Positions 456 through 28,595 of a stretch of DNA of 29,229 nt are shown piece after piece. Positions within the stretch are counted from its first letter, which is position 1, and every line of letters starts with the position of its first letter. The stretch is from a virus: positions 1-29,229 of IMG/VR virus record IMGVR_UViG_3300045282_000091; one strand, 5' to 3'. The notes below the pieces were generated by a model, which was given only the letters and a program-made list of their open reading frames with translations, made no database searches and was not told the origin of the DNA. A program made the translations under genes and the position numbers.

Positions 456-966
456 CCGACCCCCGCCGCCCACGGGAGCCGCCATGCCCACGGAGGGAGC
501 ACTGCCAGATGACATCGGCCTGAGCATCGACATGCTCGACGTGGACCGCCTACGTGAATGGGCGCGATTGCTGCTCGTTCACGGCCCTGACGTCAGCTAT
601 TGGGGCTCGGTGGCGTTCGTCGTGACGAGGATGCAAATCATGGCAACCGACATCGAGAAAGCTGTCCGCGACATCGGGCGTCTCCGTGCGGCTCACGGAG
701 GGCGCAAGGAGGCGGCGACCGATGAGGGGCTTCAGCGGATCTGCGAGGTGGTCGCTCAGAGCCTCGTACGAGTAGAAACTGCAGAAACGAAGTATCACGA
801 ATTACTCTACGCCGTGGGCAACAAGCACGCGGGAGAATCGCGGCACGAAACCGCACTGCGCTACATCCGACAGGCAGAGCAGTCACACGGTCCAGTATCA
901 GCGGGATGGGCGCTCAGCCGCAGGAGCGGAGACACCGGCCCCGCCACAGGAGCCCGCATGCGATGA
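448..966 (+). CDS. Hypothetical protein, lower-GC gene
   Basis: A 172-residue protein of unknown function. I chose the ATG at 448, which overlaps the preceding stop, but ATG 484 has the better ribosome-binding site (GGGAG, 5 nt spacing) and is equally possible. The middle is predicted helical and mixed-charge (MATDIEKAVRDIGRLRAAHG, then VETAETKYHELLYAVGNKHA). Bases about 590-880 have clearly lower GC and AT-ending codons such as GAA, ACG-AAG-TAT and GAA-TTA, unlike both neighbours, which suggests more recent acquisition or relaxed codon choice. The 13-mer CGATGACTGACCG at its start is repeated at the start of the next gene. Confidence 0.65.
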   Translation: MTDRPPPPTGAAMPTEGALPDDIGLSIDMLDVDRLREWARLLLVHGPDVSYWGSVAFVVTRMQIMATDIEKAVRDIGRLRAAHGGRKEAATDEGLQRICEVVAQSLVRVETAETKYHELLYAVGNKHAGESRHETALRYIRQAEQSHGPVSAGWALSRRSGDTGPATGARMR

Positions 967-1169
967 CTGACCGCGTCGACAAGATTCGGGTGAAGGGCAG
1001 CGCGAAACAATACAAGCGCGGGCCGGGGCCGACCGGCGCCGCCCGGCTCGCGCAACGCGCGCAGCGCCTGGCGCTCGACGCCGCCCGCCTCGCGCGCCGC
1101 GAGGACGCGTACGCCGCGCGCCTGCGCGAACTGCTGCAGACGTTTCTCACCGACGAGGCGCAGCCGTGA
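963..1169 (+). CDS. Small basic Ala/Arg-rich protein
   Basis: A 68-residue protein starting at ATG 963, which overlaps the preceding TGA (ATGA). An AGGAG lies at 946-950. The N-terminus is Lys-rich (KIRVKGSAKQYKRG) and the rest is a long Arg/Ala helix (ARLAQRAQRLALDAARLARR). This composition suits nucleic-acid binding, but I do not recognise a family. It is coupled to the next gene by a GTGA overlap at 1166-1169. Confidence 0.55.
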   Translation: MTDRVDKIRVKGSAKQYKRGPGPTGAARLAQRAQRLALDAARLARREDAYAARLRELLQTFLTDEAQP

Positions 1170-1441
1170 CGCCGTACGAACCGCCGAACGGCATGGCCGA
1201 TCTGGTGCGCATTGTCCAAGCGGTCTCGCCGAGCCGCGCGGCCGATCTGCTGGCGCTCGCGTTCCAGGACTGCGCCGCCGACGCGCTCACGCAGGATCTG
1301 CGGCTCCGGTTCGCGGCCCCGGTGCTGCTCGCGGCGTGCAAACGCGCGCTCGAGACCATCGAGACAGGCCGCGCGCTCGACTGGCCGTCCCTGGTGACCG
1401 CGGTCGACCAGGCCGAACGATCCGAGGCGCCCGTTGGCTAG
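1166..1441 (+). CDS. Hypothetical helical protein
   Basis: A 91-residue protein beginning with GTG 1166 in a GTGA overlap with the previous gene. It is predicted almost entirely helical (LVRIVQAVSPSRAADLLALA, then VLLAACKRALETIETGRALD) with single Cys residues that form no evident metal site. No family recognised. Its position inside an unbroken run of overlapping small genes, together with strong GC3, supports a real gene. Confidence 0.55.
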   Translation: MTPYEPPNGMADLVRIVQAVSPSRAADLLALAFQDCAADALTQDLRLRFAAPVLLAACKRALETIETGRALDWPSLVTAVDQAERSEAPVG

Positions 1442-1667
1442 ACGGTCCGCACCGGCGCCGTGCCCGGATCGCGTCAAGGACGAGGCGATCGTCGTCCCGC
1501 GCGGCGAGCCGGTCTACACGCTCGACTTCGACGACGCGACGATCGAGCTGCTCGCGGCTGGGATCTGTCCGGCCGACGTGGCGCGCCGCGCGTGGGAGTG
1601 TCTCGGCTGGAAACGCGAACAACACCGCAACCAGGCGCGCTTGGAGCGCGTCAAGGAGACCGCATGA
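1434..1667 (+). CDS. Small protein with acidic N-terminal half and helical C-terminus
   Basis: A 77-residue protein. The likely start is TTG 1434, which overlaps the stop of the preceding gene by 8 bp; no ATG or GTG fits better. The segment YTLDFDDATIELLAAGICP, then ADVARRAWECLGWKREQHRN, looks like a compact helical domain, perhaps helix-turn-helix-like, but this is inference. Its stop overlaps the ATG of the next gene (ATGA at 1664). Confidence 0.5.
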   Translation: MARRSAPAPCPDRVKDEAIVVPRGEPVYTLDFDDATIELLAAGICPADVARRAWECLGWKREQHRNQARLERVKETA

Positions 1668-2371
1668 AGGTGACGATCAAAACGGCGCACGGGTACCTCT
1701 CGCCGCAACCGGCGACCAGCAAACAACCCGGCGTGCGCTGGGAGTACCGCGACACGGCCGGCGAATGGGAGACGCTCGAGCTCGTCGGCCTCGATCTCCC
1801 GACGCGGCCCGTGCCGCCGACCACGCCGACGCCGCCGGATCCCACGACGCCACCCGACCCGACCCCGCCGCCGCAGAGCGCGGACGCGTTCGACCTGTCC
1901 GCCGCCATCGTGGCGTCGGGCGATTGTCCCGCGGTCGCGCACCTGCCGATCCTGGCGTCGATGGCGTCGATTTCCCTGATCGACGTCGGCGGGGACGGGC
2001 AAGGCTATGCGATGAACTTCCCCGGTCGGGATACGTGGACGGGGGTCATTCCGCCCGGCTGGGACGGGCCGATCAATCACACGTTGTGGATTGCCGAGAA
2101 GATCGCGGGCACGTGGTACGTGCTCCCGATCAAGGAAGCCCTGAACGACTACTGCACGCTCGGGCCGATCCTGACACCGGGACAGATTCCGAAGAACCTG
2201 TGTTACTTCGCGCAGTCGCCCATGAACGGGTACCAACCGGCCCCGTATGAGCAGATCGGCTTCTTCGCCACGACCGGCGACACCCGACGCATGAACCTCC
2301 AACCCATGACGGGCGCAGGCCGGACCAATGTCGTCTTGGTGCCGTTTGCGGCGGGCGAATATCACTGGTGA
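1664..2371 (+). CDS. Fascin-like beta-trefoil repeat protein with Pro/Thr linker
   Basis: A 235-residue protein with ATG 1664 preceded by AAGGAG. Residues 1-48 (KTAHGYLSPQP, then WEYRDTAGEWETLELV) match the repeat signature of fascin-like/actin-crosslinking beta-trefoils (HG-YLS ... GPWETF-L), which generally act as carbohydrate or protein binding modules. A Pro/Thr/Asp-rich linker follows (about residues 50-72). The remaining 160 residues form an unrecognised domain with repeated Gly, Trp and Tyr that reads as beta-rich. Only one trefoil repeat is visible, so the fold would need partners or multimers. A virion-surface or receptor-contact role is plausible, but its place in the small-gene cluster does not prove it. 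Confidence 0.6.
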   Translation: MKVTIKTAHGYLSPQPATSKQPGVRWEYRDTAGEWETLELVGLDLPTRPVPPTTPTPPDPTTPPDPTPPPQSADAFDLSAAIVASGDCPAVAHLPILASMASISLIDVGGDGQGYAMNFPGRDTWTGVIPPGWDGPINHTLWIAEKIAGTWYVLPIKEALNDYCTLGPILTPGQIPKNLCYFAQSPMNGYQPAPYEQIGFFATTGDTRRMNLQPMTGAGRTNVVLVPFAAGEYHW

Positions 2372-2408
2372 CCACCGACGATCCCGACCCGACCCCAGCG
2401 CCTGCGAC

Positions 2409-2813
2409 GTGGACCGGCACCCGATCGGCTACGCCACGCGCGCCGAGGCGCTCGATGCCTGCGAGGCGCTGATGGATGCCGACCGCGCCGCGCCCGGCTG
2501 TCACATCATGCCGGTGTACTGCAAACGCTGCGGCGCGTGGCATCCGCGCCAGCAGCGGATCGTGTTTCCCGAGGGGGCCGAAGCCGGACGGACTGGAAGG
2601 GGAGGGCACACCGTGGGACTGATTGAACTGCTCATCTACATCGTGGTCGTCGTCCTGATCGGCTGGCTGGCGATCTGGATTCTCGGGGAGGTCGCAGCGG
2701 GCCACCCGCCCATCATCGACCGGATCATCTGGGTCGTCGTGGTGCTGATCATTGTGTTGACGCTCGTGCGCGCGTTCGGGATCGTGGATCCGCAGGTCCC
2801 GAGGTTGCGATGA
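2409..2813 (+). CDS. Zinc-ribbon-like protein in frame with a two-TM protein
   Basis: The open frame encodes a small phage-type zinc motif protein (RHPIGYATRAEALDACEAL ... YCKRCGAWHP), the pattern seen in short phage and actinobacterial proteins that read the sequence YRCP-CGGWH. It continues without a stop into a hydrophobic 67-residue segment. I chose GTG 2409 because it keeps the whole conserved part; ATG 2328 is possible but would overlap the upstream gene by 44 bp, and neither start has a good ribosome-binding site. The product would be 134 residues: a cytosolic Cys motif followed by two membrane helices. Internal initiation at 2613 is likely (separate entry). Confidence 0.5.
   Translation: MDRHPIGYATRAEALDACEALMDADRAAPGCHIMPVYCKRCGAWHPRQQRIVFPEGAEAGRTGRGGHTVGLIELLIYIVVVVLIGWLAIWILGEVAAGHPPIIDRIIWVVVVLIIVLTLVRAFGIVDPQVPRLR
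2613..2813 (+). CDS. Small two-TM membrane protein (internal start)
   Basis: GTG 2613 has a much better ribosome-binding site (GGGGAGGG, 6 nt spacing) than the start of the longer frame. It would give a 66-residue protein with two hydrophobic helices (VGLIELLIYIVVVVLIGWLA and IIDRIIWVVVVLIIVLTLVR) joined by a short polar loop. The N-terminus MGLIE-LI and the general plan resemble the 51-residue protein at 28933-29088, so the two may be paralogues of the small phage/bacterial membrane families of the Lmo0937/Thivi_2564 type. A holin role is possible by size, but nothing proves it. Confidence 0.5.
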   Translation: MGLIELLIYIVVVVLIGWLAIWILGEVAAGHPPIIDRIIWVVVVLIIVLTLVRAFGIVDPQVPRLR

Positions 2814-3343
2814 ACGCGATGGCGAAGAAGCAGATACAGATGCGGCCGGACGATTCGCCGCAACCCCGGCCATCGCCGCCACCGCGCGCCGTTCATCGCA
2901 CTGTGTCGCACGCTCCGCAATCCGCGCCGACCTCGCGCCCGTTGCCCCGAGGATCACGGCGTGTTTCTGCTCCCCGTGTGGTGACCGCGATGCACGCCAC
3001 GCGCGACCTCTACCGCCGCGGCTGCCGCTGCACGCCCTGCCGGGCCGCCAACGCCGCCTACTGGCGCGCCTGGTGGGCGGCGCAGCGCGGCGGCCGCCCC
3101 CGTCTCGGCGCGCGCGTCTCGGCCGTCGAGGCCCAGCGGCTGCTGCGGCTGTTGTTCATCGAGTGGCGGGCCAGCACCGCCGCCAAGACCCTGCTCAGTC
3201 AGGCGCTCGGGTTGCGGCACAATCTCCCCCGGCTCCGGCAGCAGGACCGGGTGACGCTGCGCACGGAACTCAAGATCCGGCAGTTCTACCGCTGGCGCAT
3301 GTTGGCGGACCCGGACCGGCGGCGCGCGCCGGGCGCGTCCTAG
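2810..3343 (+). CDS. Cys-motif (GCRCxxC) putative DNA-binding protein
   Basis: A 177-residue protein; ATG 2810 overlaps the preceding TGA. The first 55 residues are Pro/Ser/Arg-rich and probably disordered. Residues 61-90 (MHATRDLYRRGCRCTPCRAA followed by NAAYWRAWW) match a motif common in actinobacterial and phage small proteins, HGT-x-YxxGCRCxxCRxANxxYxR, with Cys 72, 74 and 77. The C-terminal half is helical and basic (AVEAQRLLRLLFIEWRAS, LRTELKIRQFYRWRML). The family has no firm biochemical role; the metal-type Cys cluster with basic helices suggests nucleic-acid binding. A shorter product from GTG 2982 or ATG 2990 would keep only the conserved part. Confidence 0.6.
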   Translation: MNAMAKKQIQMRPDDSPQPRPSPPPRAVHRTVSHAPQSAPTSRPLPRGSRRVSAPRVVTAMHATRDLYRRGCRCTPCRAANAAYWRAWWAAQRGGRPRLGARVSAVEAQRLLRLLFIEWRASTAAKTLLSQALGLRHNLPRLRQQDRVTLRTELKIRQFYRWRMLADPDRRRAPGAS

Positions 3344-3365
3344 AATTCTTCACGGGTTAGAAAAA

Positions 3366-3779
3366 GTGGCCGCCGATCCTCAAGCCCACGCCCCCCGCGG
3401 CCCCCTCGTCCGCCGCGACCCCATGGCGCACGCCGACCCCATGGCGGCCCGGTCGTGCACGGCTCGCTCGAAGTCCACCGGGAAGGCTTGCCGCCAGCCC
3501 GCGATTCCCGGCGGCACCGTCTGCCGCTACCACGGCGGCGCCGCCCCGCAGGTCAAGGCCGCCGCGATGGACCGCCTGCGCGCCTTGCAGCATCCCGCCA
3601 TCGACCGTCTCGGCAAACTCATCGATCAGGAGCAGTTTCCGAGCGTCTCCTACGCCGCCAGCAAGGACGTGCTCGACCGCACGCTCGGCAAGCCGGGCGA
3701 GCACCTCGACCTGACGTTGAACGTCACGGATGAGCTGTTAGGGCGACTGGACCGGGGGCGGTTGAGGCTGAAGCGATGA
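3366..3779 (+). CDS. HGG-motif zinc protein, candidate small terminase
   Basis: A 137-residue protein from GTG 3366 (ATG 3423 and 3441 are alternatives). Residues 31-61 carry C-x10-C-x10-C-xx-H-GG-AAP (C31, C42, C53, H56), the well-known HGG motif of a phage protein that usually lies just upstream of the large terminase. After it comes a helical region ending SYAASKDVLDRTLGKPGEH, the kind of repeat-like helix pair that ends with DRxxGKP in this family. Small terminases recognise the packaging site and hand the DNA to the motor. No other small-terminase candidate lies near, so I infer that role from position; the zinc motif itself is seen directly. Confidence 0.65.
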   Translation: MAADPQAHAPRGPLVRRDPMAHADPMAARSCTARSKSTGKACRQPAIPGGTVCRYHGGAAPQVKAAAMDRLRALQHPAIDRLGKLIDQEQFPSVSYAASKDVLDRTLGKPGEHLDLTLNVTDELLGRLDRGRLRLKR

Positions 3780-4066
3780 CGCACCACGCGAGGCTGGGCT
3801 CGCTGGGCCACGTCGAGGTCACTCTGGCTAAGGGCGGCCGCGTACCGGCCGGGTTCGTCACGGCTGTGCGGGAGGCTGTGCTGGAGGCCGTGACGCAGGT
3901 GTACGCGCGCGTGCGCAAGTGCCCGCAGTGCGGCGCGGCGTTTCTGAAACAGGGGAAGCAGACGTACTGCTCGCCGGTCTGTGGACAAGAGATGCGGATG
4001 GCCCGGTTCCTGGCCCGCCGGCCGAACTATTACCGTGAACGCGAACGCGCGCAGGGGCCGTCATGA
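3776..4066 (+). CDS. Zinc-ribbon protein (CxxC...CxxxC)
   Basis: A 96-residue protein, ATG 3776 in an ATGA overlap with the previous gene. Residues 49-69 hold a four-Cys site (CPQCGAAF ... YCSPVC; C49, C52, C65, C69) followed by a basic helix (QEMRMARFLARRPNYYRERE). This is the pattern of treble-clef/CGNR-type zinc ribbons found in small nucleic-acid-binding phage proteins. The N-terminal half lacks recognised motifs. Its stop overlaps the terminase start at 4063, so it is translated together with the packaging motor and may help with DNA recognition; this is inference. Confidence 0.7.
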   Translation: MTHHARLGSLGHVEVTLAKGGRVPAGFVTAVREAVLEAVTQVYARVRKCPQCGAAFLKQGKQTYCSPVCGQEMRMARFLARRPNYYRERERAQGPS

Positions 4067-5565
4067 CCGTGCCCCTCGCCGCCAGCCGCGACTTCGAAGC
4101 CGAGCTGCACGACTTCTGCGCCGACCACTACGCCGACCCGCTCAACTGGGTCCGCGCCGCCTTCCCGTGGGGCGAGCCCGGTCCGCTGGCCGCCTACGCC
4201 GAGCCCGACCGCTGGCAATGCGCGTTCCTCGAATGGCTGGGCGGCGAAATTACCGCGCGCGGCTTCGACGGCGTGCACCCCGTCATGCCCATCCGCGGCG
4301 CCGTCGCCTCCGGCCACGGCATCGGCAAGGGCGCCCTGACCGGCATGCTGGTCGCGTTCCTGATGTCGACGCGGCGGGATGCCAAGGGCGTCATCACCGC
4401 CAACACCAACACGCAGCTGCAGGACAAGACCTGGGCGGCGATTCAGGTCTGGGTTAAGCGGGCGCTCACCGCGCATTGGTTCACGGTCAACACGTCGATC
4501 CTGTATCGCACGGGCTACCGCGAGTCGTGGAAGGTGAGCCCGCAGACCTGCGACCCCGACAACTCCGAAGCCTTCGCCGGCCAGCACAACGTCGGCTCGA
4601 CCAGCTTCTACATCAACGACGAAGACAGCAACGTCCCCAACATCATCCACGAGGTCGAGGAGGGCGGCCTGACCGACGGCGAGCCGATGCAGTTTCTCTT
4701 CGGCAACCCGACGCGGCGGCGCGGCGCGTTCTACGACATCGTGTTCGGCGGGCTCGGCACGCGCTGGCAGACGTGGGTCATCGACGCGCGCGACTGCGCC
4801 TTTCCGAATAAACAGCTCATCGCCGAGCAGCTCGAGGACTACGGCGAGGACAGCGACCGTTTCCGCGTGCGCGTGCGCGGCCTGCCGCCCAACGCCGAGG
4901 ATGCGCAGTTCATCGACATGGCGCGGGTGCGCGCGGCCCAGAAGCGCCAGGTGGCCGTGCTGCCCGACGAACCGCTGGTGGCCGGCTGCGATCTGGCGTG
5001 GGGCGGCAGCGACAGCAACGTGATCCGGTTCCGCCGCGGGCGCGATGCGCGCACGATTCCCAGTATCCGCATCCCCGGCGAGCTGACGCGCGACCCGGCC
5101 GTGCTGACCAACCGGCTCGCGGACGTGCTGCGGCAGGACTACGACGGCCAGAAAGTGGACATGCTGTTCCTCGACAGCGCGGGGATTGCCGGCGCGGTCG
5201 GCGCGCGGCTGCGGCAGCTCGGGCACCGCAACGTCTCCGAGGTCAACTTCGGCGCCGACTCGCCCTCGCCCAAGTGCCGCTACATGCGCGACTACATGTG
5301 GGCGGAGATGAAGGACTGGCTGCTGACCGGGGCGATCGACACGTCCCCGCGGCTCGAGGCGGACCTCATCGGCCCCGGCGTGCGCGAGGAGCTGAAGCAG
5401 CGCATCTGGCTGGAGTCGAAAAAAGAGATGAAGGCGCGCGACGTGCCCTCGCCCGACGAGGGCGACGCGCTCGCGCTCACCTTCGCGCAGCCGGTCGCCG
5501 CGCCGCGGCCGGTCGTCGCGGCCTTGCCGCTGCCGCGGGGCGTGGGGGGCTGGATGGGGGCGTAG
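4063..5565 (+). CDS. terL: Terminase large subunit (packaging ATPase-nuclease)
   Basis: A 500-residue protein with both halves of a large terminase. The ATPase domain has a P-loop at residues 84-90 (GHGIGKG) and a Walker B-like strand at 182-188 (FYINDED, with D186-E187). A FGNPT motif (coupling/motif III position) follows near residue 210. The RNase H-like nuclease half shows three acidic positions: D310 (AGCDLAWGG), D371 (LFLDSAGIAG) and D468 (SPDEGDALALTF). It cuts concatemeric phage DNA and drives it into the prohead through the portal. Length is normal for the family. ATG 4063 overlaps the upstream stop. This is the firmest marker of phage identity in the window. Confidence 0.95.
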   Translation: MTVPLAASRDFEAELHDFCADHYADPLNWVRAAFPWGEPGPLAAYAEPDRWQCAFLEWLGGEITARGFDGVHPVMPIRGAVASGHGIGKGALTGMLVAFLMSTRRDAKGVITANTNTQLQDKTWAAIQVWVKRALTAHWFTVNTSILYRTGYRESWKVSPQTCDPDNSEAFAGQHNVGSTSFYINDEDSNVPNIIHEVEEGGLTDGEPMQFLFGNPTRRRGAFYDIVFGGLGTRWQTWVIDARDCAFPNKQLIAEQLEDYGEDSDRFRVRVRGLPPNAEDAQFIDMARVRAAQKRQVAVLPDEPLVAGCDLAWGGSDSNVIRFRRGRDARTIPSIRIPGELTRDPAVLTNRLADVLRQDYDGQKVDMLFLDSAGIAGAVGARLRQLGHRNVSEVNFGADSPSPKCRYMRDYMWAEMKDWLLTGAIDTSPRLEADLIGPGVREELKQRIWLESKKEMKARDVPSPDEGDALALTFAQPVAAPRPVVAALPLPRGVGGWMGA

Positions 5566-5578
5566 AATGGGGCGTCCG

Positions 5579-5980
5579 ATGCAGCGTCGAGAATTTCTGG
5601 CAGCGTTATTCGGCACGGCCGCGGCTGCCGCAGCATTCCCGACCTTCTTCGAGGATGTCGCTGTTCCGCCGCCCGTCGCGCCGCGCTGGATCATGCAGGC
5701 GGAAGCACTGCAGGTGGGCGACGTATTCACAATCGCGGGCGTTCATGCCCTCAATCCGCTGACACGGCGGCCGATCGCGCACCTGCAGCGCTTCCTCGTG
5801 ACCGGCCAGGTGACCGGTGACACGGCCTCCCCGCAGATTTACCCGCCGTTAATCGTGGAGGGCCCGTATGCGAATGTCGATACGTGGCCCGCGCATGATG
5901 CCGCTCTGCAGGTAGGATGGACCGACGAGTGGATCGGTGAGCCCGCGCCCGCACACGGCGTCCGCATCCTCAACCCCTGA
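5579..5980 (+). CDS. Tat-type signal peptide fused to a free coat I-domain
   Basis: A 133-residue protein (ATG 5579; ATG 5567 would add four residues). It starts MQRREFLAALFGTAAAAAAF, a textbook twin-arginine signal: RRxFL and then a weakly hydrophobic Ala-rich stretch. Residues 43-112 (VGDVFTIAGVHALNPL ... LQRFLVT ... IYPPLIV ... YANVDTWPAHDAALQV) align with residues 248-322 of the coat protein of this same phage (KGDILTIAGVNTVNPL ... LQQFVVT), i.e. the I-domain inserted in P22-type coats. No other coat part is present. It lies between terminase and portal. Roles could be an exported decoy, an exclusion factor or a capsid-assembly partner; all are inference. The Tat signal may be non-functional. 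Confidence 0.75.
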   Translation: MQRREFLAALFGTAAAAAAFPTFFEDVAVPPPVAPRWIMQAEALQVGDVFTIAGVHALNPLTRRPIAHLQRFLVTGQVTGDTASPQIYPPLIVEGPYANVDTWPAHDAALQVGWTDEWIGEPAPAHGVRILNP

Positions 5981-6031
5981 CCCGCCTAGATTTGCCCGCC
6001 GCCCGCGCGCCGTCGCATCCTGAGGGACCCG

Positions 6032-6238
6032 ATGGCGACTCCGGCCAGCTTTAACCCGCGTGAGCTCCACCGTCGCCAGTTCCAGACCGCGGCCGCGTCC
6101 GCGCTCGACCGGCACGCGCTGGCGATTGGCGCAACGCGCGAGGTGCTCGCCGATCTCGCCCTGCGCCTCGACGTGCTCGAAGGGCTGCAGCGGCGCGACC
6201 TCTGGGGCCGGCTGCGCTGGCTGGTGACCGGGCGATGA
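6032..6238 (+). CDS. Small helical protein before portal
   Basis: A 68-residue protein, ATG 6032 preceded by TGAGGGACCCG. It is one long helical stretch (ATREVLADLALRLDVLEGLQ followed by RRDLWGRLRWLVTG) with an amphipathic, Trp-containing C-terminus. No family recognised. Gap of 51 bp from the upstream gene; its stop overlaps the next start (ATGA). Confidence 0.6.
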   Translation: MATPASFNPRELHRRQFQTAAASALDRHALAIGATREVLADLALRLDVLEGLQRRDLWGRLRWLVTGR

Positions 6239-6255
6239 GCGACCGGGCGATGAGC
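6226..6255 (+). repeat. 15-bp perfect tandem duplication over a start codon
   Basis: GACCGGGCGATGAGC occurs twice in a row (6226-6240 and 6241-6255), with the first five bases repeated again afterwards. Each copy contains an ATG in the frame of the downstream gene, and the first copy also contains the stop of the upstream gene. A recent replication slippage event is the simplest explanation. Confidence 0.9.
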
Positions 6256-6528
6256 GACCGCGTCGCGACGCTCCTCGCGCAGGCGCGCGAGGCCCACCAG
6301 CGCTATCGGGACGCGCTGCCGCAGCGCCGGGCCGCAGACGGCGCGATCACGCCAGGCGACCCCGTCGCCGCACGCGCCGCGCTCCAGACCGCGCTCGACA
6401 TGCGCACGGCGGCGATCGCCGAGGACCCCGAGCAGAACGATCCCGCGTGGCAGGCCGAGGCCGCGTCCGTCTACGACCACGGCGCGCTCCTGACCTTTTA
6501 CCGCGAGCAACTGGCGCGGGTGCCCTGA
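6235..6528 (+). CDS. Small hypothetical protein before portal
   Basis: A 97-residue helical protein. The start codon lies in a 15-bp tandem duplication, so both ATG 6235 and ATG 6250 are possible and the longer form begins MSDRAMSDR. The body (LLAQAREAHQRYRDALPQRR; ALQTALDMRTAAIAEDPEQ; DHGALLTFYREQLARV) is helical with no known motif. Its stop overlaps the portal ATG (ATGA at 6525-6531), so it is translated immediately before the portal. Confidence 0.6.
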   Translation: MSDRAMSDRVATLLAQAREAHQRYRDALPQRRAADGAITPGDPVAARAALQTALDMRTAAIAEDPEQNDPAWQAEAASVYDHGALLTFYREQLARVP

Positions 6529-8933
6529 TGGCGTCTACCACCGCACCCGCCGCGCCCGACGACGCCGACGACGCGACCGGCGCGCGCGACCGGGGCGATG
6601 TCGTGCAGGAGGCGCTCGACCGCTTCGATCTCTGCGTCACGGCCGAGCACGCCCAGCGGGCGCGCGAGCTCGCCGCGCTCCAGTTCCAGGTGCCCGAGCT
6701 GCAGTGGCCCGACGACGTGCGCGCCGCCCGCAAGGCGCAGACCGTCGGGGGCGTGACGCTGGCGGGGCGGCCGATGCTCGCCATCCCGAAGCTCGATCAG
6801 CCGATTCAACTCGTGCTGAACCAGGAGCGCGCCGCGCACCTGGGCATCGAGGTGCATCCGATCAGCGAGGCGGCGGATGATGCGACCGCGACGATCCTGC
6901 AGGGCCTCTACCGCGCCATCGAGGTCGACAGCCGTGCGGGGCTCGCGCGCTCGTGGGCGTTCGAGCGCCTGGTGAAAGCGGGGCGCGGCGCCTATCGCAT
7001 CCTCAAGGCCTACGACGAGACCTCCGATCACCCCTCGGACCAGAAGATCGTCATCGCGCGGATCTACGAGCAGGGCGCGGTCTACGTCGACCCGGCGTCG
7101 ACCGAACCCGATGGCAGTGATGCCGAGTATGCGTTCGTGGTCGAGGACGTGCCGCTGCGCCGTTACACGCGGCGCTATCCCACGTCCACGCTGACCCGTT
7201 ACACCGACGAGGACTTCGTCGCGCTGGGCAATGAGCGCCCGGGCTGGATTACCGGCGAGAAGGACGCGGTCGCGATCCGCGTCTGCGAATATTTCTACTA
7301 CAGCTACGAGACCACGACCGTCGCGTGGGAGGGCGGCAGCCGCACCAAGGAGCAGCGCACCGTGCACTGGTGCAAGCTCAATGCGGTCGAAGAGCTGGAG
7401 CGCGAAGTCTGGGACGGCCAGTACCTGCCGATCGTGCGCCTCGCGCGCCAGCTCGTGCCCTTCGACGGCGACCAGCGCAGTGTCGGCCTCATCGAGCCCA
7501 ACAAGGACGCGCAGCGCCTGTTCAACTATGCGGCGAGCGCCTCGGTCGAGATGGCCGCGCTCGAGACCAAGGCCAGCCACGCGCTCGACCCGCGCCAGAT
7601 CGAAGGCTACGAGGCCTGGTGGAACCAGAAAAACACGCGCAACTTCCCGTACCTGCCGTTTCGCCGGCAGATCGACGGGCAGGACCTCGGGCCGCCGGTG
7701 CCGATCCAAGCCGACATGAGCAAGATGCAGATCAACGCGCTGCTCCTCTCGCAGGCCGGGGACTTCATCAACGCGGGCACGTCGACCTTCGAGCCCTCGC
7801 TCGGCGACACGACGCCCAACGTGCGCACCAAGGGCGGCACGCTCGCGCTGCAATCGCAGAGCGAGCAGGCGACCAGCCATTGGATCCAGATCCTGGCCGA
7901 CACCGCCATGACGCACGAGGCCCGGATCGTGCTCGACCTCATCCCGCACGTCTACGACCGGCCCGGCCGCATCGCGCGCATCCTCGACACGGAAGACAAC
8001 CCCAAGCAGGTCATGCTCAACGCGCCGTTCGTGCGGCAGGGCACGCGCCCGGTGCCGGCGCCGCTCGGGGCGCTCGGGCCGCGGCCGGTGGGCGGCCCGC
8101 CGCCGGGGCTCCCGATGGGCGCTTCGCCAGGACCGCCGCCCGGCCTGCCCCCTGGGATGCCATCCCCGGGCGGGCGGCCGGGCGCGCTGGCGGGCGCCCC
8201 CCCGCCGATGGGTGGGCCGCCGCGACCAGGCGCGCCGTCCGCCCCAGCCGTCGAGCACTACGACCTCAAGAAAGGCCGCTACGGCGTCACCGTGTCGGTG
8301 GGGAAGGCCTATCAGTCGCTGAAGCAGGAGGGCCAGGACGCGCTCGCGGCGCTGTTCCAGGCGCAGCCGCAACTGTTCGGGATTCTCGGCGACATCTGGC
8401 TCCAGTTCGCTGACTTCCCCGGCCATAAAGTCGCCAGCGAGCGCGTCAAGAAAATGCTGCCGCCGCCGCTCCAGGACCAGGACGCGCAGGGGCAGGCGCA
8501 GACGCAGCAGCAGCTCGCGGCGGCGCAGGCCCAGATCCAGCAGTTGACGCAGGCGCTCCAGGCGCTCGAGCCCGAGAAGATGGCCGCGCAGGTGCAGATC
8601 GCGACGACCCAGGCCAAGGTCCAGGCCGACACGCAGCAGGCGCAGCTCAAGAGCGCCGCCGACGTCGAGATCGCGCGCATGAACAACGCGACCAAGGTGC
8701 TCGTCGCGCGCATCACGGCGGCCAAGGAAGCGTCGAACGCGGGCAAGGAAGATTTCGAAGAGCGCCTGGCGCTCGCCGCCGACCTGGCGCACGACGCCGA
8801 GCAGCAGGGGCTTGACCGCCGGCACGAGGTGGCGATGGCCGCGCACACCGCCGCGCTCCAGCCGCCGCCGGCCCCGCCGGGACCAGATTTGCCCGCGCCG
8901 CCGCCGGGATCGCAGACTGAGCCGCAGCCCTGA
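6528..8933 (+). CDS. Portal protein (P22 gp1-like)
   Basis: An 801-residue protein of the size and position of P22-type portals (P22 gp1 is 725 residues). The core (residues about 25-505) contains typical portal segments such as PMLAIPKLDQPIQLVLNQER, then the NIxxA-like helix region, KAGRGAYRILKAYDE and the long stem region QINALLLSQAGDFINAG. A Pro/Gly/Met-rich linker of about 70 residues (509-578) follows, then a Gln/Ala-rich helix (QQLAAAQAQIQQLTQALQAL ...) like the C-terminal barrel helix of P22 portal. It forms the dodecameric DNA gate at the head vertex, docks the terminase and later holds the gp4-like connector. ATG 6528 overlaps the preceding stop. Confidence 0.88.
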   Translation: MASTTAPAAPDDADDATGARDRGDVVQEALDRFDLCVTAEHAQRARELAALQFQVPELQWPDDVRAARKAQTVGGVTLAGRPMLAIPKLDQPIQLVLNQERAAHLGIEVHPISEAADDATATILQGLYRAIEVDSRAGLARSWAFERLVKAGRGAYRILKAYDETSDHPSDQKIVIARIYEQGAVYVDPASTEPDGSDAEYAFVVEDVPLRRYTRRYPTSTLTRYTDEDFVALGNERPGWITGEKDAVAIRVCEYFYYSYETTTVAWEGGSRTKEQRTVHWCKLNAVEELEREVWDGQYLPIVRLARQLVPFDGDQRSVGLIEPNKDAQRLFNYAASASVEMAALETKASHALDPRQIEGYEAWWNQKNTRNFPYLPFRRQIDGQDLGPPVPIQADMSKMQINALLLSQAGDFINAGTSTFEPSLGDTTPNVRTKGGTLALQSQSEQATSHWIQILADTAMTHEARIVLDLIPHVYDRPGRIARILDTEDNPKQVMLNAPFVRQGTRPVPAPLGALGPRPVGGPPPGLPMGASPGPPPGLPPGMPSPGGRPGALAGAPPPMGGPPRPGAPSAPAVEHYDLKKGRYGVTVSVGKAYQSLKQEGQDALAALFQAQPQLFGILGDIWLQFADFPGHKVASERVKKMLPPPLQDQDAQGQAQTQQQLAAAQAQIQQLTQALQALEPEKMAAQVQIATTQAKVQADTQQAQLKSAADVEIARMNNATKVLVARITAAKEASNAGKEDFEERLALAADLAHDAEQQGLDRRHEVAMAAHTAALQPPPAPPGPDLPAPPPGSQTEPQP

Positions 8934-10741: not shown

Positions 10742-11974
10742 ATGAATACCCTCGCGACACCCACATGGGTCACGAAGGAAACGGCCCGGGAGTTTTTCAA
10801 CGACCTGACGTTTCTCGCCAACGTGAACCGCACGTATGACGACCAGTACATCCAGAACGGCGCGAAAGTCGGCAACACCGTCAACGCGCGCCTGCCGCAG
10901 CGCTTTCAGGCCACCGACGGCCAGGCGCTGCAGCTGCAGAACATCTTCGATCAGACGGTCCCGATCTCGCTCACCAACCAGAAGAACGTCGCGTTCGGCT
11001 GGAGTAGCGCGCAGGGCACGACCGAGATCGACGAGGTCCGCACGCGCTACACCAAGCCGGGCGGGGAAGCACTCGCCAACGTCGCCGAGGTGCTCGCCTT
11101 CAACGCGGTCTACCGCGACGTGTTCAACGCGGTCGGGACGCCGGGCACGACGCCCGCGGCGACGCTCACCTACCTGCAGGCCGGCACGAAGCTGACCGAC
11201 CAGGCGACGCCGCTGCGCGGCCGGGTGGCGGTGCTCGATCCGCTCGCCATGCAGACGATCGCGAATGCCTCGTCGACGCTCTTCAACCCCTCGGCCGTGA
11301 TCGGCGAGAACTACAAGAACGGGATGTTCGGGCGCCGGCAGCTCGGCATCGACGAGTGGTATCAGGACCCGGTGCGCCCGACGCACACCACCGGCTCCTT
11401 TACCGCGTCGACGCCGATCGTCAGCGGCGCGGGGCAGACCGGCTCGGCGATCAGCACGACCGGCTGGGCGTCCAGCGCGACGACGCTGAAGAAGGGCGAC
11501 ATCCTCACGATCGCCGGCGTCAACACGGTCAACCCGCTGTCGTACTCCTCCGTCGGCCGGCTCCAGCAGTTCGTCGTGACCGCGGATACCAGCGACGTGA
11601 CGGGCGCGATCGCGGCGCTCCCGATCGCGCCCTCGATCATCACGTCGGGGCAACTGCAAACGGTGGACGTCTCGCCGGCGGCCAACGCCGCGATCACGGT
11701 GTGGTCGGCCAACCCGGTCGCCGGCACGCTCGCCGCGACGAGCTCGCCGCAGTCATTCGTCTACCATCCCGACGCCTTCGCGTTCGTGATGGCCGATCTC
11801 ATTAAACCGGGTGCGGGCGCCGACGCCACGACCGTGCGGTCGAAGGCGCTGGGGTTCTCGATCCGGATGGTCGAGCAGTACCAAATCGGCACCGACCAGA
11901 ACCCGTCGCGCCTCGATATTCTCATCGGCGCGGCCACTGTCCAGGCGCGGCTCGCGTGCCGCGTCGTCGGGTAA
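10742..11974 (+). CDS. Major coat protein (P22 gp5-like)
   Basis: A 410-residue protein (P22 gp5 is 430). It starts MNTLATPTWVTKETAREFFN and has a HK97-fold N-terminal part with DDQYIQNGAKVGNTVNARLP and QKNVAFGWSSAQGTTEIDEV, both characteristic of the P22 coat family. Residues 248-322 (KGDILTIAGVNTVNPL ... LQQFVVT ... PSIITSG) are the I-domain insertion, which in P22 stabilises the monomer and controls capsid size. The C-terminus (SIRMVEQYQIGTDQNPSRLD) ends the coat core. Builds the icosahedral head on the scaffold. A segment of this gene has a separate paralogue at 5579-5980. Confidence 0.9.
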   Translation: MNTLATPTWVTKETAREFFNDLTFLANVNRTYDDQYIQNGAKVGNTVNARLPQRFQATDGQALQLQNIFDQTVPISLTNQKNVAFGWSSAQGTTEIDEVRTRYTKPGGEALANVAEVLAFNAVYRDVFNAVGTPGTTPAATLTYLQAGTKLTDQATPLRGRVAVLDPLAMQTIANASSTLFNPSAVIGENYKNGMFGRRQLGIDEWYQDPVRPTHTTGSFTASTPIVSGAGQTGSAISTTGWASSATTLKKGDILTIAGVNTVNPLSYSSVGRLQQFVVTADTSDVTGAIAALPIAPSIITSGQLQTVDVSPAANAAITVWSANPVAGTLAATSSPQSFVYHPDAFAFVMADLIKPGAGADATTVRSKALGFSIRMVEQYQIGTDQNPSRLDILIGAATVQARLACRVVG

Positions 11975-16319: not shown

Positions 16320-16786
16320 GTACCCCGATCGATCCGATTCCGCAATACGACCCGCTGGTCGACGCCAACCAGAAGATGGGCGAGCGCTGGTATCGCTGGT
16401 TGTCGACGGTGGTGGCGCGGATCTTCGAGGCGCCGACGGTCGCGGCGTCCACGCACCGGGTGGCGCTGACGGGCGCCGTGGCGCCGGTGACGCTGCTGAC
16501 CCCCACCCAGCCGGGCGCCTATCGCGTGAGCTGGGCGCTGCAGGTGACGACGCCGGCGACCACCAGCAGCAGCGTGGCGGTGGTCGTGCGGTGGACCGCG
16601 AACGCCATCGCGCAGACCGAGACGTTTCCGGCCGTGACGGGGAACACGACCGGTACGCACGCCTTCGGCACCGTCGTGATCTATCCGACCTCGGCGCTGC
16701 CGATCACGATCGCGACCACCTACAGCAGCACGGGGCCGATTCCGCTGGCCTACGCGCTCGACGCCGTCGTGGAGGCGCTGACGTGA
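16316..16786 (+). CDS. Putative virion beta protein
   Basis: A 156-residue protein from GTG 16316. It starts with DPIPQYDPLVDANQKMGERW, then YRWLSTVV, a short helical anchor, then a Thr/Val/Ala-rich beta region (RVALTGAVAPVTLLTPTQPG). The plan, a small N-terminal anchor plus a beta domain, occurs in minor tail or head proteins of podoviruses. It stands directly after the hub gene. Function not known. Confidence 0.65.
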   Translation: MSTPIDPIPQYDPLVDANQKMGERWYRWLSTVVARIFEAPTVAASTHRVALTGAVAPVTLLTPTQPGAYRVSWALQVTTPATTSSSVAVVVRWTANAIAQTETFPAVTGNTTGTHAFGTVVIYPTSALPITIATTYSSTGPIPLAYALDAVVEALT

Positions 16787-17223
16787 CGCGCCGGCCCGCG
16801 ACGGCGGCCGATGTGGACGCCATCGTGGCGATGGGGCAGCGGTTCCTCGCGCAGAGCGTCTATCGCGGGCACCTGGCCGATAACCCGGGCCAGGTGCGCA
16901 CACTCGCGACGTCCCTCATCGCGTCGCCTGAGGGCGACGTGCTCGTCGCCGACGACGGCGACGGGCTCGTGGGGATGCTGGCGATCGTGGCCTATCCGCA
17001 CCATCTGAGCGGCGAGTGGGTCGCCGGCGAAGTCGCCTTCTGGGTGGACCCGGCCGCGCGCGGGATCGGGCTGCGGCTGCTACGCGACGCCGAACGCTGG
17101 GCGCGCGCGCACGGGGCGGCGCGGCTCGAGCTGATCGCGCCCACGCCGGAGGTCGAAAGGCTGTACGCGCGGCTGGGCTATCGGCCGGTCGAGCGGACCT
17201 ATCACCGGGCGCTGACCGCATGA
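16783..17223 (+). CDS. GNAT-family N-acetyltransferase
   Basis: A 146-residue protein (GTG 16783, GTGA overlap). Typical GNAT layout: RRPATAADVDAIVAMGQRF at the N-terminus, strands around GMLAIV and GEVAFWVDP, acetyl-CoA pyrophosphate loop R93-G94-I95-G96-L97-R98 (motif A, RGxGxR) and the C-terminal LYARLGYRPVERTYHR (motif B). GNAT enzymes move an acetyl group from acetyl-CoA to an amine. Acceptor unknown. In phage tail cassettes GNATs are common and may modify a virion or host protein. It is followed by an oxygenase gene, so the pair may form a modification cassette. Confidence 0.88.
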   Translation: MTRRPATAADVDAIVAMGQRFLAQSVYRGHLADNPGQVRTLATSLIASPEGDVLVADDGDGLVGMLAIVAYPHHLSGEWVAGEVAFWVDPAARGIGLRLLRDAERWARAHGAARLELIAPTPEVERLYARLGYRPVERTYHRALTA

Positions 17224-17894
17224 CGCCGGACATGGCCGCGGTGCTCGCCGACCTCGCGCAGCGCGCCATCGCGCAGGCGCCGCCGGTGGCCTCGCGCCCG
17301 GCGGCCTCCTCGCATCTGGGCGCCGGGTGTCTGCGCGTGCATGAGGACGTGCTGCCCGACTGGCACGCCTACACCGCGGCCGTGCGGGCCTTGGCGTTTC
17401 GCAGTGTGCCCATCGGTGCCGCGCTGTTCCACGGGCTCGCGTCCTGCGACGACCCGCGGCTGGCCGACTGGATCCGCGCGCACTATCCGCAGGCGCTGCC
17501 GACGCTGAGCTTTTATCGGCAGAGCCCGGCGGGGCAGGTCGAGCCGAATTTCATCCACACCGATCGCGACCTGGGCGACTGGACCGCGATTTTCTACTTG
17601 ACCGTCGATCCGCCGCCCGAGGACGGCACGACGTTCTGGCGCGATCGCGAGACGGGCGCGACCGCGAGCACCGCGACGACGGAGGCGCAGTTTCGGGCCG
17701 AATGGCCGACCTGGCGCGACGGCGATCGCTGGGAGCCGTGGCACACGGTCGACGCTGCGCCGAATCGGCTGGTGCTGTTTCCCGCGCCGCTGTTTCACTC
17801 GCGCGCGATCGTCGACAACTACGGGACCGCCGGGACGGACGCGCGCCTGATTCAGGTCGTGTTCGGCACCGGCACGCTGGAGGATGAACGATGA
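17220..17894 (+). CDS. 2OG-Fe(II) oxygenase-like protein (DUF6445 type)
   Basis: A 224-residue protein, ATG 17220 overlapping the previous stop. The centre carries NFIHTDRDLGDWTAIFYLT with H113-x-D115, a Phe/Tyr-rich beta core, GTTFWRD, and a distal H193 in LFPAPLFHSRAIVDNY; H-x-D...H is the iron triad of the jelly-roll 2-oxoglutarate oxygenases, and the sequence style matches the DUF6445 phage family. Arg 195, or the Arg in DARLIQV, may bind 2-oxoglutarate. It would hydroxylate a protein residue, probably Pro or Asp/Asn as in prolyl-hydroxylase relatives; the substrate is unknown. Next to a GNAT gene. Confidence 0.75.
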   Translation: MTPDMAAVLADLAQRAIAQAPPVASRPAASSHLGAGCLRVHEDVLPDWHAYTAAVRALAFRSVPIGAALFHGLASCDDPRLADWIRAHYPQALPTLSFYRQSPAGQVEPNFIHTDRDLGDWTAIFYLTVDPPPEDGTTFWRDRETGATASTATTEAQFRAEWPTWRDGDRWEPWHTVDAAPNRLVLFPAPLFHSRAIVDNYGTAGTDARLIQVVFGTGTLEDER

Positions 17895-28082: not shown

Positions 28083-28595
28083 TCAGACGGCGAGACGCAC
28101 GGATCCGTCGCGCCCGTCGTAGACCAGAAGCATGTCCCTGAGGATGGAGCGCCCGATGAGGGCTTGGTGCGGTTGGTTGCCGGCGCGCAATTTCACACCC
28201 ATAAACCGCCCGAATTGCACGAAGCCTAACGCCGCAATTCGAATATACCCAAGGTAGATATTGAAGTTCTCCGTGCCGCCAATGCCGGATCCCTTGGCCT
28301 GATCGATGAGGGGCAGCTGCAGCGCCTTCGCGAGGTCCTCATCGATGCAACTCTCACTCGCCCCGGTGTCGATTAACGCGTCGACCAGCTGCGCCGGCTG
28401 CTGGGCCCGCATCGACGCAATCGCCTGCTGGACGACGGCCGGATCGGTATGAAAGAACGCCTGATTGAACCCGATCTCGACCCCCACCGTTGGGCCTTTC
28501 ATGACGAGCAGATCGCGCCCCGTGATGAAGCGCGCGGGTGTGCTCCCGGGCATCTGGACCAACGCCGGGAATCCGCAGTTCGCGATCGGGCTCAC
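28083..28595 (-). CDS. Retropepsin-like aspartic protease
   Basis: A 170-residue protein, GTG 28595 overlapping the stop of the upstream gene (GTGA). The active-site loop is LIDTGASESCID (D76-T77-G78-A79), and the second conserved element of the family is ALIGRSILRDMLLVYD (145-160). This is the retroviral-type single-domain pepsin fold, active only as a dimer. The N-terminal 70 residues have a beta strand-rich start and a helix with DPAVVQQAIASMRAQQP. Such proteases occur in bacteria as small stand-alone genes. Here it is encoded right after a DUF5678-like gene. Its substrate is not known; the stretch from about 28140 to 28260 is AT-richer than the surroundings. Confidence 0.8.
   Translation of the reverse strand: MSPIANCGFPALVQMPGSTPARFITGRDLLVMKGPTVGVEIGFNQAFFHTDPAVVQQAIASMRAQQPAQLVDALIDTGASESCIDEDLAKALQLPLIDQAKGSGIGGTENFNIYLGYIRIAALGFVQFGRFMGVKLRAGNQPHQALIGRSILRDMLLVYDGRDGSVRLAV

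Follow-up and report, generated by a model that had tools for sequence, protein, structure and literature searches.

Coat proteins are not expected to exit the cytoplasm through a protein export pathway, and we know of no function for export-tagged coat pieces. Among the described systems closest to the gene considered here, the P22 coat protein gp5 has an I-domain (residues 222-345) whose D-loop (239-254) is part of the inter-subunit contacts, and an N-arm that is the site where the scaffold gp8 binds coat (PMC9965877). It is established that bacterial immune systems can sense capsid protein, as CapRel-SJ46 and Gol/Lit (PMC9712102) and a TIR system (PMC11312562) do, and the Tat pathway is known to export leaderless partner proteins by hitchhiking (PMC4273604). 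The window, by which we mean the whole 29,229-nucleotide stretch of DNA that was analysed (IMG/VR virus record IMGVR_UViG_3300045282_000091), contains a gene of another kind. Its product consists of a Tat-type leader and, behind it, part of a major head protein; of this anatomy we are nearly certain. The gene is one of a kind that recurs in phages, a previously undescribed family that tags different pieces of three unrelated head-protein families.

The gene begins one base past the stop of the terminase large subunit gene, TerL (Table 1). Two small ORFs, at 6032 and 6235, separate its slot from the portal gene, whose open frame runs from 6447 with a first likely ATG at 6528, and a scaffold-like ORF (phrog_8865, 2.2e-10) is among the neighbours in the window. 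The close relative L081 aligns with the window on both sides of the slot (its bases 1-935 with window positions 4631-5565, and its bases 938-3802 with positions 5982-8927) and is without exactly the segment 5566-5981 between TerL and portal, which marks the gene as accessory. Two other relatives, L010 and L011, with TerL identities of 96% and 95%, have other short Cys-rich ORFs in this post-TerL slot. The non-coding element TTTGCCC-N18-CATCCT, just past the slot, recurs in L010, L011, L012, L014-L016 and L081; its spacing appears promoter-like, and a function of that sort is putative. A further Cys-rich short ORF, L076:9871-10185, lies downstream of TerL and has a coat C-terminal piece at its end. 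Elsewhere in the window, an ORF on the minus strand (28083-28595) with ALIDTGASESCID resembles by eye a retropepsin-like aspartic protease, and among the tail genes lie two ORFs that look like a GNAT acetyltransferase (16786-17223) and a 2-oxoglutarate-type oxygenase (17220-17894).

Table 1. Coordinates of the features discussed, in the window and in related loci (prefix L).
Feature	Position	Strand	Basis or remark
Terminase large subunit (TerL), left neighbour of the accessory slot	4063..5565	+	phrog_2, E 3.6e-26
Tat-leader / coat I-domain gene	5567..5980	+	137 aa from ATG 5567; 133 aa from in-frame ATG 5579
Tat-type leader MQRREFLAALFGTAAAAAAFPTFFE (RR-x-F-L, uncharged Ala-rich stretch)	5579..5653	+	sequence, TIGR01409, model helix 3-19
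Truncated coat I-domain, corresponding to P22 coat 257-344; first third and D-loop missing	5687..5914	+	
Conserved non-coding element TTTGCCC-N18-CATCCT, just past the slot	5991..6021	+	seen in relatives
P22-type portal, right side of the slot	6528..8933	+	PF16510, E 1.7e-96
Own P22-type coat protein	10742..11974	+	phrog_283, 5e-67; PF11651, 1.2e-31
Own-coat I-domain part matching the small gene	11465..11701	+	BLASTP
Different Cys-rich short ORFs in the post-TerL slot of close relatives	L010:8350-8564; L011:11479-11700		
I-domain without leader	L092:7947-8216		
Tat-leader ORF	L092:8213-8620		
TatA/TatE-like protein on a phage contig, between two Tat-leader genes	L092:8633-8842		NF001940, 8.3e-17
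Tat-leader ORF with coat N-arm	L092:8838-9197		

The initial annotation had read the start of the protein as a Tat-type leader, and the RR-x-F-L motif bears this out. From the in-frame ATG at 5579 the N-terminus, MQRREFLAALFGTAAAAAAF, has the twin-arginine motif and uncharged hydrophobic stretch of a Tat substrate, and it scores 15.1 bits with TIGR01409 (cut-off 16.7). Leaders of relatives reach 22.5 (L236), 18.5 (L149) and 16.7 bits (L237) with the same model, and that of L005 reaches 22.8 with PF10518 (cut-off 22.7). Relatives also keep the arginine pair: the family leader motif is RRxFL...LDPERLLWVPGAKTIFLP, and RR is present in all 56 leader-motif ORFs, which were found with patterns not containing RR. 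The segment LDxERLLWVPGxKTIFLP, which stands behind the leader in L005 and in the 60 leader-search proteins described below, is absent from the window, L003 and L092 proteins. Judging from design and slot, common descent of these three leaders with the large family is likely, if not proven; the window protein, with the same design and slot, may yet represent a parallel branch.

The likeness of the remainder to a coat I-domain, also noted earlier, is borne out by several comparisons. Residues 41-116 align with residues 242-320 of the phage's own coat at 42% identity over 79 aa (pair E 4e-16, BLASTP), and the virus record contains just two matches, the small gene and the coat gene. The match holds in profile searches: residues 45-116 match phrog_283, a major head protein family (E 1.9e-6), and PF11651 (P22_CoatProtein) is matched at E 0.0039 with 16.5 bits, under its gathering score of 24, as expected because the protein is a fragment. 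A coat HMM built from 29 coats gives the window protein 68.9 bits, and none of 2,000 shuffled C-terminal parts exceeds 3.2 bits. Only coat columns from about 241 to 320 are matched, in agreement with the claim that no other coat part is present, and the 137-aa protein does not contain the full HK97 core (N-arm, E-loop, P-domain and A-domain). It should be regarded as a fragment derived from coat and not as a coat protein in its own right.

An AlphaFold model, made without templates from a 45-sequence alignment that included coat I-domains, predicts a helix at residues 3-19 and a core with pLDDT block means of 82-95 over residues 41-110. The best 19 PDB matches in Foldseek are the coats of P22, CUS-3 and Sf6 or isolated I-domains. 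In the best VIA-align row, the P22 procapsid coat 8i1v_B (Z 9.0, rmsd 1.9 A, 79 residues), model residues 34-114 superpose on coat residues 257-344; the I-domain 6mnt gives Z 6.7. As modelled, the protein has the P22 I-domain beta-barrel fold (gp5 222-345), a match which is not independent of the sequence match, because the alignment behind the model contained coat I-domains. The VIA-align ranges begin at P22 252-257 in most of the best rows, and the sequence match begins at own-coat residue 242 (coat HMM column 241-246). Since the match starts at P22 257 and the D-loop occupies 239-254, the I-domain in the window is truncated and its D-loop is gone. We also note that the I-domain of the own coat (window 11465-11701) matches phrog_1302 distal tail proteins (E 5.9e-6) and that T5 pb9 is among the structural matches (Z 3.7), so that the barrel may be common to tail proteins.

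The same design recurs in other phages. A direct search led to L003, a 157-aa protein (TRRAFMGGLLG) encoded between portal and scaffold that matches in both leader and I-domain; a phmmer search of the loci added L005, a 96-aa protein (NRRGFLRWLGG) with leader and I-domain, encoded upstream of the portal. Searching with the L005 protein returned more phages with the same leader and different tails, and a search with a leader alignment yielded 77 loci with 60 distinct proteins, from uncultured IMG/VR phages. As a reference set for the C-terminal parts we took every ORF of at least 200 aa in the loci, 1,989 in all, of which 46 are head proteins: 41 of 67 match a longer ORF at E 0.01 or better, the best match being a head protein in all 41, and the other 26 have no detected head-protein match. 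Identified independently, the targets belong to phrog_283, phrog_14242 and phrog_9953. Tails that outscore all 3,350 shuffles number 14 with the P22-type profile, 26 with that of phrog_14242 and one with that of phrog_9953; with the P22-type model, shuffles stay at or below 6.1 bits and real tails attain up to 67.9. Because the 77 loci, picked by leader, were confirmed by comparison with L145, a member with a phrog_14242-type N-terminus as its tail, the counts for that type are too high; this ascertainment bias does not affect the phrog_283-type matches, and a Fisher test (p 1e-58), to which the same L145 caveat applies, is not relied on.

The pieces carried by P22-type members come from different parts of the coat: the N-arm (L210, L220/L149, L215, L092, L239, L236, L214, L238), the I-domain (window, L003, L005, L232, L237, L222, L235), the stretch after the I-domain (L133) and the C-terminus (L209, L236, L235). 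The order is permuted in some, with coat columns 336-353 followed by 40-57 in L133 and 355-397 followed by 245-267 in L235. No TerL fragments were found in short ORFs away from contig ends, and a portal fragment occurs in one short ORF only, L128:11850-12524, so the choice of head proteins is specific, not absolute. That 225-aa ORF, located in the same record as L005, has no Tat leader; its start is Cys-rich, and it combines the portal-like piece with permuted pieces of coat. In another ORF, L005:3554-4111, the end consists of a piece of coat N-arm that runs straight into the beginning of an I-domain, and two leaderless short ORFs, L226:11969-12292 and L171:11100-11426, match the C-terminal part of the phrog_14242-type head protein in records that also hold Tat-leader members.

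The initial annotation knew of no such protein in P22-like phages, and indeed the design is absent from described ones: when members served as tblastn queries against 50,697 deposited phage records, practically all the matches were full coats, the L092 N-arm query returning coats and one weak Bacillus phage match (E 0.06) and the L145 query one weak unrelated match. The leader alone has no match in the 50,697 phage records (E up to 10) or in 72,556 plasmid records (E up to 1). A scan of genome contigs returned one Xenorhabdus coat only, the DNA pattern RRxFL-gap-GDVFT gave coats and chance matches and no new members, and in the open literature we found no report on Tat-tagged capsid pieces or phage TatA.

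We suggest, with a probability of roughly 0.3, that the protein is a Tat-targeted capsid mimic that carries a capsid-binding partner to the membrane or periplasm. The mimic would be made in the cytoplasm, where its capsid-derived part would bind whatever usually binds coat, be it a host capsid sensor, the scaffold or coat subunits; the Tat leader would then direct the mimic, along with anything bound to it, to the inner membrane or into the periplasm, and transport would thereby remove the partner from the cytoplasm. Our first guess for the partner is a host capsid-sensing defence, which is favoured because the pieces vary by phage, form tandem arrays (L214, L210, L238, L172, L145, L136, L235, L092) and tend to resemble the own coat. 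More tentatively still, several unrelated head-protein lineages might use Tat-tagged capsid epitopes as swappable cassettes behind a constant leader, once with a private TatA, so that host defence proteins which bind capsid would be drawn from the cytoplasm. In the pairs L178/L191, L180/L185 and L199/L203, leader dS is far below tail dS, which suggests cassette exchange, with tails swapped behind a constant leader.

Several points weigh against the mimic. If a sensor recognises the epitope, the outcome might be activation of the sensor and not its blockage. The N-arm pieces probably do not fold alone, and Tat prefers folded cargo. The detected head-protein matches leave 26 of 67 tails aside, and the leader in the window falls just below the TIGR01409 cut-off. 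For the most part the P22-type genes have late head genes as neighbours, a setting that is equally consistent with a role in assembly. In general terms the protein may titrate coat, scaffold or some other partner that binds coat; the earlier proposals of a minor head part or of titration special to the I-domain are too narrow, because the I-domain is one of several head-protein pieces on such leaders, and for the proposed action on incoming virions we found no support.

An assembly role is tentative in its turn. The leader would tether the coat piece at the inner membrane, where the piece would bind scaffold or coat and start, limit or quality-control procapsid assembly; T4, for comparison, starts its proheads at the membrane. 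P22-type members do lie upstream of the portal. Most have the slot between TerL and portal (window, L149, L211, L222, L234, L237, L239; L221 is inverted), where the initial annotation had proposed to look for the same gene in related phages. The N-arm, where scaffold gp8 binds coat gp5 in P22 (PMC9965877), is moreover a frequent piece. Against an assembly factor, the gene is accessory, as L081 illustrates; a cleaved or exported Tat substrate would land on the wrong side of the membrane; phrog_14242-type members are found among non-head genes (by eye, for instance cold-shock-like and uracil-DNA-glycosylase-like ORFs); and the I-domain in the window is without its D-loop.

It is also conceivable, if doubtful, that the fragment interferes with competing phages, poisoning or removing another phage's coat in the same cell. 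The fragments have diverged from their own coat, those of L003, L005 and L209 are nearer to other phages' coats, and tandem arrays of different pieces would suit such a task. When coats were ranked in gapless HMM columns among about 42 coats, however, the own coat came 7/43 for the window, 2/43 for L003, 7/43 for L005, 7/41 for L209, 8/41 for L212, 5/40 and 1/41 for L236, 1/41 for L239 and 22/43 for L235, and thus within the best quarter in eight of nine comparisons (the L092 record, a fragment without a full coat, was left out). This is the opposite of what a foreign-only target predicts, and fragments aimed at foreign coats only are not supported, since the own coat ranks high; by these rankings the fragments, diverged as they are, lean towards their own coat lineage.

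A lysis or envelope function that depends solely on the Tat leader and on membrane targeting, the capsid-derived tail being passive or a timing element, strikes us as improbable. It accords with a leader more conserved than the tail, with the many tails that have no detected match, and with the one phage that has its own TatA-like protein. That protein, encoded on L092, scores 45.3 bits with TIGR01411 (cut-off 53.9) and 20.4 bits with PF02416 (cut-off 21), and such a gene is present in only one of 18 records examined. A passive tail would be expected to derive from any phage gene, whereas the detected tails are all head-protein pieces and TerL pieces are absent. Separately, the tail of L092b was considered as a coat spine-helix piece, and the match was not significant.

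There is little to recommend a decaying by-product of recombination, in which head-gene pieces copied beside a leader gene have no function. Permuted and partial pieces (L214, L236, L133, L235) and the accessory position are what such decay might leave; yet the pieces are in-frame, sense and uninterrupted though about 40-60% diverged, one leader is combined with three head-protein families, and the same genes are recovered from independent samples. Close pairs have dN below dS in both leader and tail (for L180/L186, dN 0.05 and dS 0.20 in the leader, 0.12 and 0.64 in the fragment), which is suggestive of purifying selection, few pairs being close enough for the comparison. Assembly chimeras are not a tenable explanation, since genes that are nearly identical come from independent samples (L180-L183, L187-L189, L215/L216, L147/L149). 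Least plausible is a place in the virion, as a decoration or minor protein on the head or inside it. A coat-derived domain within a late head operon might suggest this; against it stand a Tat leader without evident use in a virion part, N-arm pieces that are not surface domains, and the missing D-loop of the I-domain in the window.

That one gene family recurs in phages whose major head proteins are of three unrelated kinds points to a task they have in common, so far undescribed, in which both capsid protein and the cell envelope play a part. Should the Tat-targeted mimic serve counter-defence, bacterial capsid sensing would become testable from the phage side, and the family would be an example of secretion employed to remove immune proteins.

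Set beside the I-domain of P22 gp5 (PF11651, phrog_283; 2m5s, 6mnt, 8i1v), the window copy has the sequence and predicted fold of residues 257-344 in common with it, and differs in being free, in bearing an export leader, and in having neither the HK97 core nor the first third of the I-domain with its D-loop. With Tat signal peptides (TIGR01409, PF10518) it has in common RR-x-F-L at the start and a weakly hydrophobic stretch; in contrast to these, most relatives add LDxERLLWVPGxKTIFLP and then head-protein pieces, and export is predicted only. The L092 neighbour gene matches models of the TatA/TatE subunit (TIGR01411, NF001940) and differs in being phage-borne and below curated cut-offs. Tat hitchhiker export, as of PaoABC (PMC4273604), provides by analogy only a model for a tagged protein that exports a leaderless partner. 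In capsid-sensing immunity (CapRel-SJ46, Lit/Gol, TIR), host proteins bind pieces or the whole of the major capsid protein (PMC9712102, PMC11312562); those are host sensors, whereas the mimic proposed here would be their phage-side counterpart, a link that is putative.
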